Source: Spirochaetota bacterium
GTDB taxonomy: Bacteria; Spirochaetota; UBA4802; JAFGDQ01
Length of the DNA: 41,978 bases
Assembly: GCA_016934735.1 (NCBI GenBank)
Contig: JAFGSG010000097.1
Span: forward strand, 1 to 41,978
Reading direction: 5' to 3'
Part shown: piece by piece, positions 29,069-40,200 of the stretch
Layout of the letters: the number at the start of each line of letters is the position of its first letter
How positions within the stretch are numbered: position 1 is the first letter of the stretch
Program-made: the position numbers and the translations under genes
The notes under the pieces: model-generated
The model's input: only the letters and a program-made list of their open reading frames with translations
Databases searched by the model: none
Told to the model about the DNA's origin: nothing

Positions 29069-30907
29069 TCAGACCTTTACCCTGAAATCGCCTAATCTTT
29101 TTATAAGCCCGTCACTTTCAATTTTATTAAGAAGCGGAATAAGATATTTTCTGGAAAGAGAAGTGCATTCTTTTGCGTCAGCTATGGTAATACGCTCCCG
29201 TGTATCAAAAAGGCCGATTATTTTTTTCTTCAGGTCATTGTATACTTCCGGATGATAAATAATGTTGCCATCCAGGCTGACCGCGAATCCCGGGCGTATC
29301 AGGTCTTTTATCTTTTTCTTCATTGAATCATCTTTTATTTTATCGATATCTATTCCCTCCGTGCCCTTTTCTTTAAGCTGCTGCAGAATTTTCTTTTTAT
29401 CGTCTGTCAGTGTTTCAACTGTAACTGAATCGTTGGCAAAATATCTTCCCTCTTTTTCAAGTATATTATTGCTGTTTTGTATTTCGCGTATTATTATTTT
29501 AGAGATATTCAAGTCTGCATCCGCAATATCTGATATCTCTTTTATGTTCAATCCGACATTTTTTTTAATGATTTCCAAAATTTTATTTTTTAAATCTGTA
29601 TAATACTCTTTATCCAGAATTAATTCATCGATTTTAACAATGGAACCTGCTTTTTGAAATTCTGAGATAGTGTTTTCAATATATTTATTTTTATACGGCA
29701 GCCGCGCTTTTATTTCATCTGATGTGGTCGACACTTTTATTTTAATAAAAAATTCAATTATTCCCTTAAGAGATAAATCCGTGAATAGATTGATTTTTTT
29801 CTTTAATGACTTTTTATCTTTAATAATAGCATAGTCAGGAATAATTACTTTTCCGCCGCCTATTATTCTGTACCCGCCGGGATTTGTAATAATAAATGAT
29901 TCGCCCGGGAAGAAAAACCACTTATCGTCTAACTTGATTCTCACAAGGATTTCGTTTTGCCGGGCTTCGTTCTCTTCATTAACCAAATCACTTAAGAGTA
30001 TTATTTTACCTCTTATGCTGTATGTACCTATCAGAATTTCAATACCATGATTATTTTTAATGGATTTTTTAATTCCGGAAAGTTTAATGGCAGCTATTAT
30101 GTCCGCGGATCCGGTAAAGAAATTATTTTTTACAATGATCTGCCCTCGTTTGAGCTCGTCAACCCTGATACCGTGGAGATTCAATGCTGTTCTTCGCGAA
30201 GGAGTCCCTTCGTTAAGGGCATGGTGATGGCTTTCAATTGTTTTTATTCTTACTTTGACATTTCCGGGAAGAACAGTCAGTTCATCATTTTCGAAAAAGC
30301 TCCCGTTCTTGAGTGTACCTGTTATTACAGTTCCATGTCCCTTTGATTCAAACGCGCGATCGACAAAAAGATAGGGTTTTCCAGCATCTTCTGTCCGGGA
30401 TAATTTTTTTAAATTATTATAAATTATTTTTTTAAGTTCGTCAATTCCTGAACCTGTTTTGGACGATACTTTTACAATGTCATAATTTTTAAATCTGGTG
30501 TTTGTTAACCGTTCTTTTACTTCCTCTTCGGTGATTTCTATTGTTTCCTGATCCGCGATGTCTGTCTTTGTCAGTACAACTATCATTCTTTCTATGCCGA
30601 GATAGTCGATCACCTTAAAATGATCCTCTGTCTGCGGCATCCAGCTGTCGTCGACCGCGATCACAAGAAGAGCAAGGTCTATGCCCCATGCACCGGCAGC
30701 CATGTTGCGGATGAAGCGCTCGTGACCCGGAACGTCTATTATGCTGACATTACCGAAGTCCGGGTACTCGATATCTGCAAACCCTATATCTATGGTCATT
30801 TCGCGCTGTTTTTCTTCAGGGAGCCGGTCGCAGTCAATTCCTGTAAGCGCCAGTATCAGGCTGGTTTTACCGTGATCGATATGTCCGGATGTTCCGATTA
30901 TGTACAC
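29069..30907 (-). CDS. selB: Selenocysteine-specific elongation factor SelB
   Basis: SelB is an EF-Tu-like GTPase that carries selenocysteyl-tRNA to UGA codons marked by a SECIS hairpin. The N-terminal GTPase domain has GHIDHGKT (8-15), DVPGHE and TKTD. Domains II and III follow, then a Lys-rich C-terminal array of winged helices (about 380-612) that in relatives binds the SECIS. The length (612) is typical. It starts with GTG, confirmed by AAGGA about 8 bases upstream. It is downstream of selA and tRNA-Sec on the same strand, separated by a 442-bp repeat-containing gap. Confidence 0.95.
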   Translation of the reverse strand: MYIIGTSGHIDHGKTSLILALTGIDCDRLPEEKQREMTIDIGFADIEYPDFGNVSIIDVPGHERFIRNMAAGAWGIDLALLVIAVDDSWMPQTEDHFKVIDYLGIERMIVVLTKTDIADQETIEITEEEVKERLTNTRFKNYDIVKVSSKTGSGIDELKKIIYNNLKKLSRTEDAGKPYLFVDRAFESKGHGTVITGTLKNGSFFENDELTVLPGNVKVRIKTIESHHHALNEGTPSRRTALNLHGIRVDELKRGQIIVKNNFFTGSADIIAAIKLSGIKKSIKNNHGIEILIGTYSIRGKIILLSDLVNEENEARQNEILVRIKLDDKWFFFPGESFIITNPGGYRIIGGGKVIIPDYAIIKDKKSLKKKINLFTDLSLKGIIEFFIKIKVSTTSDEIKARLPYKNKYIENTISEFQKAGSIVKIDELILDKEYYTDLKNKILEIIKKNVGLNIKEISDIADADLNISKIIIREIQNSNNILEKEGRYFANDSVTVETLTDDKKKILQQLKEKGTEGIDIDKIKDDSMKKKIKDLIRPGFAVSLDGNIIYHPEVYNDLKKKIIGLFDTRERITIADAKECTSLSRKYLIPLLNKIESDGLIKRLGDFRVKV

Positions 30908-30994
30908 GTAAATATCCTTAATATATTAGAATTGTTATAAAATTGTCATCAATCTTTCGATTGTCACAGGATTTCTCAAAATTTGCAAAGTAAA

Positions 30995-31246
30995 TTTGAA
31001 GATTCAAACTTAAAATTTGAAGCTTCAGGGTGAAAATTCGTAACTATAAACCCGCAGTTTGAAGCTTCAAGGTGAGAGTTTGAAACTATAAAGTCAAAGT
31101 TTGAAACTTCAGGACGTCAGTTCGAGATTACAAACCCGCAGTTTGAAGCTTCAGGATAACAGTTTGAAACTACAAACTTTGACTTTGAACCTTCAGGATG
31201 AAAATTTGAAATATAAAACTTACACTTTGAAACTATAACCTGAAAG
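30995..31246. repeat. Twelve degenerate 21-bp tandem repeats between selA and selB
   Basis: Twelve consecutive units of exactly 21 bases begin TTTGAA or a one/two-base variant (TTCGTA, TTCGAG). They alternate mostly between a form with CTTCAGG after position 7 and one with ACTATAAA or ACTACAAA, so the higher-order period is 42 bp. The 442-bp selB-selA gap (30908-31349) otherwise contains no gene. Read on the minus strand one frame translates to heptads with a repeated Ser-Asn, but it lacks a start codon and contains one TGA, so I treat it as non-coding. Confidence 0.9.
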
Positions 31247-31349
31247 TTTTTGCTAATATATTTAATTATTTCAGCAAAACAAGACAGATTGCTTGTCCGG
31301 ATAATACGATTTTATAACTAAAACAGCAATATATTAACAGCAATAATAA

Positions 31350-32741
31350 TTACCGGCCGTGAGCCTCTTCCATAAGTCCATCGATTGCCTCTGCAACTTC
31401 CGGTATTTCATTGTCCGCTATAGCGCGCAGATCAAGCATAAATTTATCATCAAGAATATAACCGGCTATGGGGATCTCGCGATTTAAAAATTTATTGTAA
31501 ATTTCTTTAGCAGACACTCCCGGAATATTTATCTGCATCGCAATGCTTTCAACTTTCAGCGTCGGAAGGCTTCCTCCGCCGAAAACGCTTTTTGCGGGCA
31601 CTCTTGTTATATATTCTTTTTTATTTTCAGCTTTTACTTTTTTAATAAGGCGGTTTGCTTTATTGCCCAATGTCCTTTTATTCTGAAAGATAATACTCCA
31701 TAGCGATATTTTTTCAATGTTTCTGTTTGCATATTGAATAAGGGTTTCCTGCAGGATATAATATGTTATTTTGTCCACCCTGAACATTCTCATCAGGGGA
31801 TTTTTCTTTAATTTCTGAATAAGGTCTTTTCTGCCCACAATAATCCCTGCCTGACAGCCCCCGAGCATTTTATCGCCGCTGAAGCAGAGAATGTCCGGCC
31901 CCTGCGACAGCTCAAATGATATGGTAGGCTCAAAGGTTTTCGGAAACCTTGCGTCCACAAGGAGGTTTCCGCTCCCGAGATCGCGTACGAACAGCCTTGA
32001 TGGGTTTTTTAACCCGGCCAGCTCTTTCAGAGACGGACTGCTGCTGAAACCTTCTATCCTGAAGTTCGATTTATGCACTGACAGGATCATCGCTGTATCT
32101 TCTGTAATTGCTTTTCTGTAATCATCTATGTCCGTAATATTAGTGGTGCCGACTTCTAAAAGCCTTGCTCCGGTCTGCATTAAGATGTCCGGTATCCTGA
32201 ATCCGCCGCCTATTTGCACGAGTTCGCTCCGTGATATCACTACTCCTTTTCCTTTTGCGAATTCGCTTAATATGAGAAAAACGCTTGCTGAATTATTGTT
32301 TACTATGAGAGCGTCTTCGGCAGACGTTAAGTTACAGATAAGCTCTTCTGCAAAACCGCCTCTTTTCCCTCTCTTCCCTAAAGGCAGGTCAAGTTCCAGG
32401 TTGCAGTATCCAGACAGTTTTGCCGTAAGACCGCGAAGCAATTCTTCAGAGATTGGTGAGCGTCCCAGATTAGTGTGAATCACGACGCCTGTTCCGTTTA
32501 TTACTCTTTGAAGCTTTTCGCGCTTTTTGCGGACGCAGCTTTCTACTATCGATGACATCAGCCGTTCAATATCAATTTCCTGGTCTTTGTCAAACTGCTC
32601 TCTGAATAATTTGATCTCTTCACGGATTATATTTACTATTATTCCTTTTCCCAAAAGAGGAATAAATTCGTTAATTTTTTCTGACTGTAAAATCTTCTCA
32701 ACCTGCGGAATTTGTTTTAAAATATTTTCGAGATTTTCCAT
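31350..32741 (-). CDS. selA: L-seryl-tRNA(Sec) selenium transferase SelA
   Basis: SelA is a PLP enzyme that converts Ser-tRNA(Sec) to Sec-tRNA(Sec) using selenophosphate. The N-terminal INGTGVVIHTNLGRSP motif and the pyridoxal lysine K291 in FSGDKMLGG are present. The next residues read CQAG instead of the usual PQAG. At 463 residues it is the normal bacterial length. A weak ribosome site (GGGAAC) precedes the ATG. tRNA-Sec lies about 150 bp upstream and selB downstream, forming a compact selenocysteine locus. selD, needed for selenophosphate, is not in the window. Confidence 0.95.
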   Translation of the reverse strand: MENLENILKQIPQVEKILQSEKINEFIPLLGKGIIVNIIREEIKLFREQFDKDQEIDIERLMSSIVESCVRKKREKLQRVINGTGVVIHTNLGRSPISEELLRGLTAKLSGYCNLELDLPLGKRGKRGGFAEELICNLTSAEDALIVNNNSASVFLILSEFAKGKGVVISRSELVQIGGGFRIPDILMQTGARLLEVGTTNITDIDDYRKAITEDTAMILSVHKSNFRIEGFSSSPSLKELAGLKNPSRLFVRDLGSGNLLVDARFPKTFEPTISFELSQGPDILCFSGDKMLGGCQAGIIVGRKDLIQKLKKNPLMRMFRVDKITYYILQETLIQYANRNIEKISLWSIIFQNKRTLGNKANRLIKKVKAENKKEYITRVPAKSVFGGGSLPTLKVESIAMQINIPGVSAKEIYNKFLNREIPIAGYILDDKFMLDLRAIADNEIPEVAEAIDGLMEEAHGR

Positions 32742-35379: not shown

Positions 35380-35754
35380 ATGAACCAGAATAATAAAAAA
35401 GCACTATGTTTATTCTTATTTTGTATATGTATTATTTGTTTAACAACCAGCATTTTCCCGTTTGATGCCGGGAGCGTTATTGCTTATCCCGTCCCTTTCA
35501 ATCCTAATATACACGGCACCCTGAGAATTGATATTCCTGCAGGGATAGATAAAGAAAAAATTGAAATTTTTGATATTAATGGCGATTCTGTTTTTACAAG
35601 GGAATATTCGTCATTAACCACTATTATGTGGAATGGAAGGAATAAGGACGGCAAGCTCGTTAATCCCGGTCTGTACATAATAAAGATCACTCTTGAGAAT
35701 ACTTCTACCGGGCAATACGGCAGGAAAATAATCAGGATATTGGTTAACAGATAA
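35380..35754 (+). CDS. Secreted FlgD/T9SS-CTD-like single-domain protein
   Basis: The 124-residue product has an N-terminal signal peptide (about 1-27). One beta-sandwich domain follows: AYPVPFNPN, then ...EIFDINGDSVF..., WNGRNKDGKLVNPGLYIIKI. This is the layout of FlgD-type Ig-like and type IX secretion C-terminal sorting domains (yPNPFNP...W.G.d..G..v.sG.Y). Here the domain stands alone with no cargo. GAAGGGAAG precedes the ATG. It lies 6 bp before a PorV/UPF0164-like barrel gene, so the two are one operon and may interact. Confidence 0.78.
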   Translation: MNQNNKKALCLFLFCICIICLTTSIFPFDAGSVIAYPVPFNPNIHGTLRIDIPAGIDKEKIEIFDINGDSVFTREYSSLTTIMWNGRNKDGKLVNPGLYIIKITLENTSTGQYGRKIIRILVNR

Positions 35755-35760
35755 ACACAG

Positions 35761-36795
35761 ATGAAAATAAACTCTAAAGGAATAAATAATTTATTTTGTG
35801 CGCTGCTTATTATTTTTATAATTAATGTAAATCTTTATGCAGGAAACGATGCAGGCGGCAGAGCAGCTTTTACCAGAGGCGGATGGGCCGGAGCAAGGTA
35901 TGTGGCAATGGGAAAGGCAGCGGAGATAGTCGTAGATGACGTATTTTCGATTTACTGGAATCCTGCCGGTTTAAGAGAACTGAGACAAAAAGAAGCCCTT
36001 ACTCCGGAAGAGATAAATAAAAGAGCGGCAGGCGGGCAAATAGACAGCATTACAGAAAAAGATCTTACAAGATTTTCGGAAGAAGAATACTCCAGATCCT
36101 TTGTTCAAATAGGAGTTTCCTCTGCGATACTGGATGTTGACAGGGAAGCCGGGTTCGCCGGAGCAGCATTTAATTTATTCAGGGGAGTGGCAGGTATCGG
36201 TTATTACGGTATACAGTCACGGAATATCGAATCAAGAGATACGGACGGCAATTATATAAAAGATATACATTACCTGGCATCAGTGGGATTTTTGTCATAC
36301 GGATGGGGGATAGGAGTTGCTTCATTGGGAGTGTCATTGAAGCCATTGTATGAAATTGTCGGGGAAACAAAGTATTACGGCATTGGCGCAGACATCGGCG
36401 CTCAAATAGAAATGATACCTCTTGTAAAGTTAGGATTTGTTGTTCAGGATATCGGGACAGGGCTCAAACCTGTAAAAAATTATGATAATATCGAAAACAG
36501 GTACAGCTTTGCTTATCCGTCATTTAAGGCAAGCGCTTCGGTAATAAATCGTGCTTCAGATATCATTGTAGCAATAAGCGGAATAAAAAAACTGGAGCAG
36601 GAAGAGTTTGAGGTAAATTTCGGTTTCCAGTATAATATTCTAAAATATACTTCAATATATCTTGGGTTAAATGACAAACTTTTTTCATCAGGATTGTCAT
36701 TAAGATTTATTAATATGGATATTACTTATGCCTTCTCGTTCGATAACATAGATTTCGGGTATAACAATACACTGTCTTTTACGCTGGTTATTTAA
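35761..36795 (+). CDS. PorV/PorQ-like outer-membrane barrel (UPF0164 family)
   Basis: The 344-residue protein has a signal peptide (1-27, LYA|GN). The N-terminal segment GARYVAMGKAAEIVVDDVFSIYWNPAGL is typical of UPF0164 and PorV/PorQ proteins, which share the FadL barrel fold. The later strands are beta-barrel-like and it ends with a terminal strand (TLSFTLVI). UPF0164 proteins are well represented in treponemes; PorV of other phyla helps move type IX cargo. Start ATG at 35761. It is followed 1 bp later by folP, so the transcript continues into the folate and c-di-AMP genes. Confidence 0.82.
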   Translation: MKINSKGINNLFCALLIIFIINVNLYAGNDAGGRAAFTRGGWAGARYVAMGKAAEIVVDDVFSIYWNPAGLRELRQKEALTPEEINKRAAGGQIDSITEKDLTRFSEEEYSRSFVQIGVSSAILDVDREAGFAGAAFNLFRGVAGIGYYGIQSRNIESRDTDGNYIKDIHYLASVGFLSYGWGIGVASLGVSLKPLYEIVGETKYYGIGADIGAQIEMIPLVKLGFVVQDIGTGLKPVKNYDNIENRYSFAYPSFKASASVINRASDIIVAISGIKKLEQEEFEVNFGFQYNILKYTSIYLGLNDKLFSSGLSLRFINMDITYAFSFDNIDFGYNNTLSFTLVI

Positions 36796-36796
36796 A

Positions 36797-37630
36797 ATGG
36801 CTTTGGAATTCGGTAAAAAGACATTGATTATGGGCATCTTAAATGTTACCCCTGACTCTTTTTATGATGGTGGCCGTAATTTCGGGCGTGAGAAAGCGAT
36901 TAAGAAGGCATATCAATTATATAAAGACGGCGCGGATATTATCGATATAGGCGGAGAATCCACAAGGCCCGGGGCGGACACAGTTTCACTTTCGGAGGAA
37001 ATGGACAGGGTTTGTCCTGTTATAGAAGCTGTTGCAGATAATATAGATATTCCGGTTTCGATAGATACGTATAAATCAGAGATTGCGGAAGAAGCATTAA
37101 AGCTTGGAGCTTCCATTATTAACGACATCAGCGGACTTGCCTTTGATGAAAAGATGGCCGGGATTGCCGCCGGATATAAATCATATATTGTTTTAATGCA
37201 TATTAAAGGAAATCCTAAGAATATGCAGGTTAATCCGCAATACGAAAATCTTTTGAAGGAAATATATTCTTTTCTGGAAAACGCGAAAGAGAAGGCGATA
37301 AATTCCGGAATCGGCAAAGATAAAATTATAATTGATCCGGGGATAGGATTCGGAAAAACCTTGGAAGACAATTACAGAATATTGAATAATATTGGTTTTT
37401 TTAAAAAAATGGGATTTCCGCTTTTAATCGGTCTTTCCAGAAAATCGTTGATAGGCAGACTATACGATAATGAAGAGGACAGGCTTTTTGCTACTATTGC
37501 GCTGAATACCATATCGTCCGTTTATGGAGCGGATATAATCAGGGTTCACGATGTGAGAGAGCATTATTTAGCCTTTCAATCAATCGAAATGCTCAGGGGA
37601 ATTCGAACAGCAGATGGAAGAAATTTTTGA
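36797..37630 (+). CDS. folP: Dihydropteroate synthase
   Basis: FolP joins p-aminobenzoate to 6-hydroxymethyl-dihydropterin in folate synthesis. The TIM-barrel signatures MGILNVTPDSFYDGG (12-26), GGESTRPGAD and the glycine-rich IIDPGIGFGK loop are all present, and the 277-residue length is usual. It starts 1 bp after the preceding stop and overlaps the cdaA start by 17 bp. The folP-cdaA-cdaR order is known in several bacterial groups. Confidence 0.95.
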   Translation: MALEFGKKTLIMGILNVTPDSFYDGGRNFGREKAIKKAYQLYKDGADIIDIGGESTRPGADTVSLSEEMDRVCPVIEAVADNIDIPVSIDTYKSEIAEEALKLGASIINDISGLAFDEKMAGIAAGYKSYIVLMHIKGNPKNMQVNPQYENLLKEIYSFLENAKEKAINSGIGKDKIIIDPGIGFGKTLEDNYRILNNIGFFKKMGFPLLIGLSRKSLIGRLYDNEEDRLFATIALNTISSVYGADIIRVHDVREHYLAFQSIEMLRGIRTADGRNF

Positions 37631-38423
37631 TACTATTAGGATTAACATAACCACATTCTGGGATTATATCAGGAATGTCCTTGATATTATTATTGTATCA
37701 TTTATATTATACTGGGCTTACTCATTTCTTTCGCATACAAGGGCAATCCAGTTATTAAAAGGAATAATTGTAATAGCAATTGTAGCGCTTTTATCAAACA
37801 TGTTAAGATTAGATACGCTTAACTGGTTGATAACAAATCTTACAACTTATCTGGTAATTTTAATAATTATATTATTCCAGCCTGAGTTGCGCCGTCTTAT
37901 AACGCAATTCGGACAGAAAAACTGGTTATCGGGCACGGAAGTTAATAATGAGCCTTTCCAGCTTGATGAGCTTGTAAATGCTCTGGTAGCAATGGCTGAA
38001 ATTAAAATAGGCGCCCTGATAGTGATTGAAAGAAATACGGGGCTTAGGAGTTATATCGAATCAGGTGTATCCATCGATGCAATAATTTCGGAAGAATTGA
38101 TCAGGACTATTTTTTATCCGAATACATTTCTTCATGATGGAGCAATAATTATTCAGGAAGGAAGAATATCAGCTGCAGCATGTTATTTGCCTTTAAGCGA
38201 TTCCAGGCAATTAAAGAAATATCACGGGGCAAGACACAGGGCTGCATTAGGGATAGCAGAGGAGACCGATGCTTTAGTTCTTGTTTCATCTGAAGAAACA
38301 GGAAATATATCAATTATGGTTAATGGTAAAATATATCCGAAAATTAAAGTCTCGGATATCAAAAATATTATTCTGTACTTTATGAATCCTAAAACTGCTT
38401 ATGAGGATAAATATCCGGTTTAA
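37614..38423 (+). CDS. cdaA: Diadenylate cyclase CdaA
   Basis: This is a membrane enzyme making c-di-AMP from two ATP. Three N-terminal transmembrane helices (about 18-90) precede the DAC domain (about 95-260) with the DGA motif in FLHDGAIII and RHR in GARHRAALG, both catalytic. The length (269) is typical. Its start overlaps folP by 17 bp. The next gene encodes a YbbR-repeat protein, the usual regulator. Confidence 0.95.
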   Translation: MEEIFDTIRINITTFWDYIRNVLDIIIVSFILYWAYSFLSHTRAIQLLKGIIVIAIVALLSNMLRLDTLNWLITNLTTYLVILIIILFQPELRRLITQFGQKNWLSGTEVNNEPFQLDELVNALVAMAEIKIGALIVIERNTGLRSYIESGVSIDAIISEELIRTIFYPNTFLHDGAIIIQEGRISAAACYLPLSDSRQLKKYHGARHRAALGIAEETDALVLVSSEETGNISIMVNGKIYPKIKVSDIKNIILYFMNPKTAYEDKYPV

Positions 38424-38482
38424 TTTCAAAGAGAAAATTAAAGAGAAAGTTTGCTTAATATTTTTTTTAATTTCTGATTAAA

Positions 38483-39454
38483 ATGAAAAATTATATACTT
38501 ATAATAAAGAACATATTAAAAGCAAAGAATATAGCTGCAAAAATTATCTGCGTGCTCCTTGCGGTTTTACTATGGGCGTATATAGGCAGCACTAATATAG
38601 GCGAGGTGAAATTTAAAATTCCGATTACATTTACAAATCTGCCGGAAACCCTGGTTATGCTGAAAATATCCAATAAATATGTAAGTGCAACATTAACTGG
38701 CAGGAAAGATAATCTTAAAAATGTAAATGTAAAAAGTATTAAGGCAGTAGTTGACCTTGACCAGCCGGAAATAGGTATAAATAAAAGTTATCCTATTGAG
38801 CTAGTTAAAGATGAAGTTCCTGAAAATATTGAGATAAATTTATCTGTAAAAAATGTCAGCCTGATTGTAGACAGAAATGTCACTAAAAGAGTAAAAGTAA
38901 AAGCAAATATTATTGATAAAGTTCAGGATGGTTATGTATTGGGCAGAGTTATGATTATTCCTGAGTCTATCAACATTAGTGGGCCCGAATCACTGATAAA
39001 AAGTATTAATTTTATGCAGACTGAAAAACTTTCAATAACAAAAGCAACAGGAAGAATAATAAAAGATGCAGGAATTTATAATAATGATTTTCCCGATGTC
39101 CGTACGGACATATCAAAAGTCAGAGTCATTATTCCTGTCATTGAAACAAGTAATTCAACCGAATTTAAAAAGAAAATCATTTTAAAAAATACAAATATTG
39201 ATTATAACTATATTGTAAGTCAGGAGGAAGTATCAGTATATCTTAAATCAGATAAGCCTGATATTGAACCGTCAGGTGATGATGTGGATATTTTTATTGA
39301 TATTGGGTCTTTGAATGCAGATGAACTCCTGAGTAAAGGGAAAGAAAATCATATTGAAAAATATTATACTTTAGAGGCCGTTGTTAAAAGAGACGGACTT
39401 AAAGTAGTTTCCATTTTTCCGGATATGGTTTCCGTAAAAGCAGTAGTAAAATAA
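38483..39454 (+). CDS. cdaR: YbbR-domain protein CdaR
   Basis: The 323-residue product has one N-terminal membrane helix (about 18-36, with the family motif LLAVLLWAYI) and a large extracytoplasmic part with YbbR repeats (about 45-120, 130-215, 225-320). In studied species CdaR binds and modulates CdaA at the membrane. It starts 60 bp after cdaA. No strong ribosome site is visible before the ATG. Confidence 0.9.
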   Translation: MKNYILIIKNILKAKNIAAKIICVLLAVLLWAYIGSTNIGEVKFKIPITFTNLPETLVMLKISNKYVSATLTGRKDNLKNVNVKSIKAVVDLDQPEIGINKSYPIELVKDEVPENIEINLSVKNVSLIVDRNVTKRVKVKANIIDKVQDGYVLGRVMIIPESINISGPESLIKSINFMQTEKLSITKATGRIIKDAGIYNNDFPDVRTDISKVRVIIPVIETSNSTEFKKKIILKNTNIDYNYIVSQEEVSVYLKSDKPDIEPSGDDVDIFIDIGSLNADELLSKGKENHIEKYYTLEAVVKRDGLKVVSIFPDMVSVKAVVK

Positions 39455-39480
39455 AGTATGTATTGTAAAGAGGAAAAAGT

Positions 39481-40200
39481 ATGTCTGCGGCTTTGTTATG
39501 TATAAATATAGATCATATCGCGACTTTGAGACAGGCAAGAGGAGGAGTGTACCCTGACCCGGTTGAAGGCGCCCTATTATGCGAAAGAAGCGGCTGTGAC
39601 GGCATTACAGTCCATTTGCGCGAAGACAGGCGGCATATCCAGGACAGGGATGTTTTCGCATTAAAAGAGATAGTAAAAGGTAAATTTAATCTTGAAATGG
39701 CTCTGTCTGATGAAATAATAAAAATTGCAGCAGAAGTAAAACCGGATCAAATTACGATTGTTCCCGAAAAGAGAGAAGAATTAACAACAGAAGGCGGGCT
39801 TGATGTCGGGAAAAACACGAAAAAGATTATTGAAAGCATTAATTTATTTCATAGTCTTAATATTGCAGTGTCTCTTTTCATTGAACCGGATGAAAAAGTA
39901 ATAGAACTTTCAAAGAAATGCGGAGCGGATTATATTGAAATCCATACCGGGACTTACTGTAATGCTGTGCAGAAAGAGGAAATCAATAAAGAAATTGACA
40001 GGATATACAATGCGGCAAACCATGCATTAAAAATCGGAATAAAAGTCAATGCCGGTCATGGGCTGAATTACAGCAACCTTAAACCTGTTTTAAAAACCCC
40101 CGGATTAGAGGAACTTAATATCGGTCATTCGATAATATCGAGAGCTGTTTTTGTCGGACTGCCTGAAGCCGTTAAGGAAATGCTTAAAATTATTAAATAG
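39481..40200 (+). CDS. pdxJ: Pyridoxine 5'-phosphate synthase
   Basis: PdxJ condenses 1-deoxyxylulose-5-phosphate with 3-amino-2-oxopropyl phosphate to make vitamin B6 phosphate; dxs in the window provides one substrate precursor. The TIM-barrel signatures NIDHIATLRQAR (9-20), VHLREDRRHIQD and VNAGHGLNY are present. The length (239) is typical. GAGG precedes the ATG. It is in the same strand group as cdaA/cdaR. Confidence 0.95.
   Translation: MSAALLCINIDHIATLRQARGGVYPDPVEGALLCERSGCDGITVHLREDRRHIQDRDVFALKEIVKGKFNLEMALSDEIIKIAAEVKPDQITIVPEKREELTTEGGLDVGKNTKKIIESINLFHSLNIAVSLFIEPDEKVIELSKKCGADYIEIHTGTYCNAVQKEEINKEIDRIYNAANHALKIGIKVNAGHGLNYSNLKPVLKTPGLEELNIGHSIISRAVFVGLPEAVKEMLKIIK

Follow-up and report, generated by a model that had tools for sequence, protein, structure and literature searches.

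Two adjacent genes of the window (the whole stretch of 41,978 nucleotides of Spirochaetota DNA analysed here) encode a dedicated outer-membrane module, real and conserved, which consists of a small secreted Ig protein and a 14-strand barrel, and the partnership of the two is ancient and retained in many Spirochaetota. The explanation we favour, with close to an even chance of being right, is that they form a single module in which the barrel would carry a permanent, passenger-free Ig lid of the type found as the C-terminal domain (CTD) in type IX secretion (T9SS), likely at the outer mouth and delivered by an SprA-like or a lipid route. The pair is not a standard type IX system, and its membership of the T9SS is putative only. 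The features of the locus are as follows:

35380..35754, plus strand: 124-aa secreted stand-alone FlgD/T9SS-type-A-CTD-like Ig protein (sequence, domain profiles, conserved gene upstream of the barrel)
35380..35460, plus strand: signal peptide region, residues 1 to about 27, assigned by eye with a presumed cleavage site
35461..35751, plus strand: Ig domain, seven strands predicted, pLDDT about 90 (AlphaFold model residues 1-97)
35755..35760, plus strand: 6-bp gap between the ORFs, both in the same frame (sequence); the two are fused as one reading frame in a related genus
35761..36795, plus strand: 344-aa predicted FadL/PorV-superfamily 14-strand outer-membrane barrel (profiles, AlphaFold, structure and PDB sequence matches)
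35845..36102, plus strand: N-terminal hatch of the barrel protein, short helices (AlphaFold model residues 129-214)
35959..35973, plus strand: NPAGL motif, invariant across 52 aligned sequences (alignment)
36103..36789, plus strand: 14 beta strands, joined by short outer loops of up to 16 residues and by inner turns of 2-4 residues (AlphaFold model)
36797..40200, plus strand: folP, cdaA, ybbR and pdxJ, conserved downstream neighbours outside the module (synteny)

The ORF coordinates and the 6-bp spacing given in the earlier note were confirmed on the sequence. The 124-aa protein is made up of an N-terminal signal peptide and one Ig domain, and passes the cut-offs of both FlgD_ig (PF13860 in Pfam, 28.9 bits against 27) and TIGR04183, the T9SS type A sorting domain (25.8 bits against 23), with CHU_C and Por_Secre_tail narrowly under theirs, which bears out its earlier description as a sorting-type Ig domain alone, with no cargo. 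The position typical of TIGR04183 domains, C-terminal to a secreted passenger, is not found in this protein, which has no passenger. The C-termini of PorZ and PorU are its top NCBIfam matches, both partial and far under the full-length cut-offs, and the PDB sequences matched by the Ig profile are FlgD and the C-terminus of entry 5m11, which we take to be PorZ.

Three other proteins of the same genome (G000) carry domains of this kind. A second stand-alone Ig protein, about 48% identical to the first (contig C2, 14727-15098, minus strand, locus L017), is located inside a prophage tail cluster with tape measure, tail fibre and endolysin genes and an integrase nearby, has no barrel gene beside it and gave no match in a comparison with phage records. 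An 880-aa protein on contig C45 (L019, 4709-7351, minus strand) begins with an NPA-type barrel-like region, contains Ig domains of the FlgD_ig/CHU_C type and ends in an OmpA domain; over the C-terminal two thirds it matches the Lsa66 family model with 291.8 bits, under the cut-off of 700. A 1,678-aa protein on contig C26 (L020, 3127-8163, plus strand) combines TPR repeats and FlgD_ig/CHU_C domains with an OmpA domain at its C-terminus.

The barrel was earlier called PorV-like or UPF0164-like. The second label was dropped, there being no Pfam match to UPF0164 (PF03687) at E 1, while the first holds for the structure and not for the sequence scores. The window barrel reaches 34.6 bits with NF033709 PorV_fam (PorV/PorQ), the cut-off of which is 90, and 41.5 bits against 325 with NF052325 PorV2, both weak matches being centred on NPAGL. 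Nevertheless, PorV of the T9SS translocon (8gl6_F) is the top PDB match of both AlphaFold models in Foldseek (E 2e-8 and 3e-8), followed by the FadL relatives FadL, TodX and CymD and by OmpG, and PorV is also the sole match of the barrel-family profile among PDB sequences (E 4.7e-4). The structural features of PorV and PorQ, namely a 14-strand FadL-type barrel, a hatch, an NPA motif and PorV as the nearest structure, are all present in the predicted structures, so the barrel is predicted to be a FadL/PorV-superfamily member, PorV-like in structure though its sequence scores are under the cut-offs. The absence of PorV features on profile search, which would have spoken against the earlier proposal, is thus half borne out by sequence scores and overturned by structure.

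A profile built from three barrel orthologues was used to search 345 Spirochaetota genomes with a threshold of >75 bits, and the barrel was found in 56 of them, including 40 of the 46 genomes of the window's order and 16 genomes from four other families. An Ig ORF is located directly upstream on the same strand in 53 of these 56, with a spacing of -22 to +132 bp, two of the 53 having incomplete barrels (G183, cut at a contig end, and G180, with an in-frame stop); the possibility that the pair is not conserved, raised in the earlier note, clearly fails. The three exceptions are G131 (L027), with a decayed copy containing stops, and G170 and G107 (L057 and L058), with none. All three belong to the order and retain a barrel despite lacking an intact Ig gene, so the Ig protein is not always needed. 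The same three orthologues represent natural variants of use for docking-site mapping.

In several families the genes run small gene, barrel, folP, cdaA, ybbR, pdxJ up to the end of each locus, and dN/dS values (NG86, close pairs) are about 0.13-0.28 for the Ig gene and about 0.06-0.12 for the barrel gene; because the synteny is conserved and the values are low in both genes, the pairing is not due to chance. One genus includes five genomes (L047, L050-L053) where the pair is a single ORF of about 440 aa with the order signal peptide, Ig domain, barrel, in which the barrel's own signal peptide is gone and about 6 residues separate the last Ig strand from the hatch. No paper on the Ig-barrel pair was found in the open literature searched, most subscription journals being outside its scope. 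Elsewhere in the window, at 29069-32741, two adjacent ORFs on the minus strand resemble SelB and SelA, which are involved in selenocysteine incorporation.

The complex prediction proposed in the earlier note was carried out with AlphaFold on a natural fusion, with pLDDT 88.0 and pTM 0.83, and on the window pair translated past its stop codon, with pLDDT 86.8 and pTM 0.84; some 33 residues form a disordered linker in the latter. In both models the Ig domain was placed on the barrel. The read-through model contains a seven-stranded Ig domain, a helical hatch and 14 barrel strands. According to pTM arithmetic, a perfect barrel with a floating Ig domain would have an estimated ceiling of about 0.77 for the fusion and about 0.72 for the window pair; because the observed values exceed it, the Ig domain appears to be placed relative to the barrel and is predicted to dock on it firmly. 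Together with the synteny and the natural fusion, this confident predicted docking upholds the earlier view of the pair as a functional unit. The alignment of Ig domain plus barrel was built from in-frame read-through rows. A coupling analysis for the docking face (mutual information, 51 pairs, about 36 effective) was set aside because it was swamped by the clade split, with known hairpin contacts enriched only about 2-fold. Conserved positions lost in two Ig-less barrels amount to 7 of 30 in the hatch, 4 of 33 in the strands and 2 of 8 in the outer loops, which is suggestive only.

In the mechanism favoured here, the FadL/PorV-superfamily barrel would hold a single FlgD/T9SS-CTD-type Ig domain as a permanent partner, docked at a fixed site, most likely the outer mouth where a FadL-type N-terminal tail emerges, and serving as a lid, plug or structural cap. 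Such an arrangement might be regarded as PorZ:PorQ or PorU:PorV cut down to the CTD and the barrel. The Ig domain would likely be exported via the divergent Sov/SprA-family protein of the same genomes or, in one genus where no SprA-like protein was found, by lipidation. The earlier suggestion that the free domain is a plug for the barrel comes close to this lid, plug or cap, as far as the predicted docking goes.

As to the membrane face, the N-terminal tails of FadL-family proteins are known to thread the pore to the outside (PMC12611786), and the initial view that a domain fused at the N-terminus is necessarily periplasmic was therefore dropped. Positions at least 85% conserved make up 8 of 39 in the outer loops versus 1 of 16 in the inner turns; the outer loops are short, with a conservation about that of the strands, and conservation is lowest in the inner turns. 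The NPA motif of the window barrel is presumably separated from the mature N-terminus by about 7 residues more than in E. coli FadL, and this offset together with the linker of about 6 residues in the fusion would bring the N-terminal Ig domain to the outer mouth, if the hatch follows FadL. It is therefore reasonable to favour an Ig domain on the outer face, capping the threaded N-terminal tail. As to the PorV/PorQ trait of binding CTD-type Ig domains of exported proteins at the outer loops, the models predict docking without showing its face, and the outer loops of the window barrel are short.

The strongest alternative, still rather unlikely, has the Ig domain bound to the periplasmic face of the barrel, where it would be a base or spacer between the FadL-type channel and the cell wall or partners in the periplasm, as in the spirochaete barrel-Ig-OmpA proteins. 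A folded domain N-terminal to a fused barrel is in the periplasm by default, and its placement outside would be hard without an exporter. No exporter is necessary on the periplasmic side, which suits the genomes without an SprA-like hit. The C45 and C26 proteins carry Ig domains of like type just before an OmpA domain, which binds peptidoglycan, so these would be periplasmic. The low conservation of the inner turns and the outward emergence of FadL-family tails argue against this alternative, as does the fusion linker, which is probably too short to lead from the outer mouth to the inner face.

The claim that there are no visible T9SS genes holds within the window and not for the whole genome, which has a Sov/SprA-family protein, a C25 peptidase and, on contig C44, a PorV_fam/UPF0164 paralogue that passes NF033709 with 121.4 bits. 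The first of these is 1,929 aa long (contig C65, 3911-9700, minus strand, locus L084) and matches TIGR04189 with E 9e-34 and 115.9 bits, under the cut-off of 200; it showed no sequence match to solved SprA. Within the order, 44 of the 46 genomes have a long relative, as do 10 genomes outside the order; full-length ones occur in the same families as the pair. The barrel is found in 48 of the 54 genomes with a full-length SprA-like protein, including all 10 outside the window's order, and the six that have no barrel all belong to the order, five of them being at most 85% complete. This co-occurrence of the pair and the SprA-like protein is confounded by shared ancestry. About 31 further genomes have weaker SprA-like matches and no pair. 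Overall, about one in four of the Spirochaetota genomes searched has an SprA-family relative.

Conversely, six Turneriella-like genomes possess the pair without any SprA-like hit; each of them has an Ig protein with a lipobox recognised by eye. A regular expression for the lipobox proved too permissive, and the lipoprotein call was restricted to the Turneriella-like genus and two relatives, by eye.

Among the 46 genomes of the order, GldM was detected in none and GldL in none over the cut-off, with one hit below it, the controls for both searches lacking a known-positive genome. C25 peptidases are sporadic, being found in 6 of 345 Spirochaetota genomes, and the window's genome has a single one, of 703 aa (contig C10, L095, 7615-9726, minus strand), with no CTD after the peptidase domain, and no PorU sortase in the sense of a C25 peptidase with a CTD. 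As a candidate PorU this peptidase was rejected because of the sporadic distribution and the missing CTD. Type A CTD matches in the genome are limited to the 124-aa protein and the prophage copy, and no other chromosomal protein of this genome was found to end in an Ig domain of this type. The general surface-anchoring system proposed in the earlier note is accordingly not supported, and the undetected GldL and GldM, the sporadic C25 peptidases and the lack of other chromosomal CTD proteins argue against a standard type IX system. The literature searched contained nothing relevant on SprA or T9SS in spirochaetes.

It is distinctly unlikely that the pair is a minimal relative or remnant of type IX export beyond the Bacteroidota, with an SprA-family translocon, a PorV-like carrier and a lone CTD substrate kept as a cap, and with no sortase or GldLM. 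A divergent working type IX-like secretion, in which CTD cargo leaving the SprA-like translocon would be shuttled by the barrel, with the 124-aa protein as a small cargo or a plug, seems improbable. It would agree with the TIGR04189 match, with the PorV-like barrels and the one C25 peptidase of the genome, and with the gene order in type B systems of Bacteroidota, where the shuttle gene is directly downstream of the substrate gene (PMC12618676). However, there is no cargo among the type A CTD hits, the GldM, GldL and C25 results speak against it, and the barrel has short outer loops, whereas PorV captures CTDs by its outer loops.

It is also quite improbable that the barrel is an ordinary FadL-type channel which passes hydrophobic small molecules, has the Ig domain for an accessory gate and is unrelated to protein secretion. 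The fold matches to FadL, TodX and CymD and the invariant NPA motif, which is essential to hatch movement in FadL (PMC8407342), would fit such a channel, but among solved structures PorV lies closest, and it alone in the PDB is hit by the family profile at sequence level; the motif occurs in PorV-family models too and so does not discriminate. That two unrelated envelope genes merely share a housekeeping operon, held together by co-expression within the folP-cdaA-ybbR-pdxJ neighbourhood, is barely credible given that precisely these two genes are naturally fused in one genus and that docking of their products is confidently predicted.

Type IX secretion has been described as specific to Bacteroidota (PMC7463736, PMC10202324) or, alternatively, assigned to the Fibrobacteres-Bacteroidetes-Chlorobi superphylum (PMC11205867). 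A CTD-type domain apparently locked to a PorV-like barrel and widely conserved in Spirochaetota alongside an SprA-family protein bears on the origin of that system, and adds a clean protein pair of unknown role to the little-studied spirochaete outer membrane. As a putative stripped-down version, it would allow the CTD-barrel contact and the dependence on SprA to be tested without cargo, sortase or motor.

Several known systems resemble the pair in part. With the FlgD Ig domain the 124-aa protein shares the Pfam family (PF13860) whose cut-off it passes, but FlgD is a flagellar hook-assembly protein, whereas the domain in the window follows a signal peptide, is free-standing and has a barrel as its partner. 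FadL/TodX channels and the FadL-like proteins of Treponema likewise have 14 strands, an N-terminal hatch and the NPA motif, but they have no Ig partner, and the window barrel has no UPF0164 match. In the BAM complex of Bacteroidota, BamG is a FadL-family 14-strand barrel which binds a surface lipoprotein, BamH, on its outer face (PMC12611786), although BamH is not an Ig domain of the window kind. The pairs of T9SS type B substrates and SprF-like shuttles (PMC12618676) also have a secreted-domain gene immediately 5' of the cognate barrel gene, but PorP/SprF barrels and type B CTDs belong to other families, and the CTD there carries a passenger. By analogy, the closest functional parallel of the pair is probably the contact between CTD and barrel in the T9SS attachment complex of Bacteroidota, which includes the PorZ:PorQ and PorU:PorV subcomplexes (PMC5562754). 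The pair differs from these in that its CTD-type domain has no passenger and shares a locus or, where fused, a polypeptide with the barrel, and in having no conserved sortase or detected motor genes. The likeness is that in both subcomplexes a PorV/PorQ protein holds a CTD-type Ig protein at the cell surface; in NCBIfam the 124-aa protein scores best with the C-termini of PorZ and PorU, and the barrel comes structurally closest to PorV.
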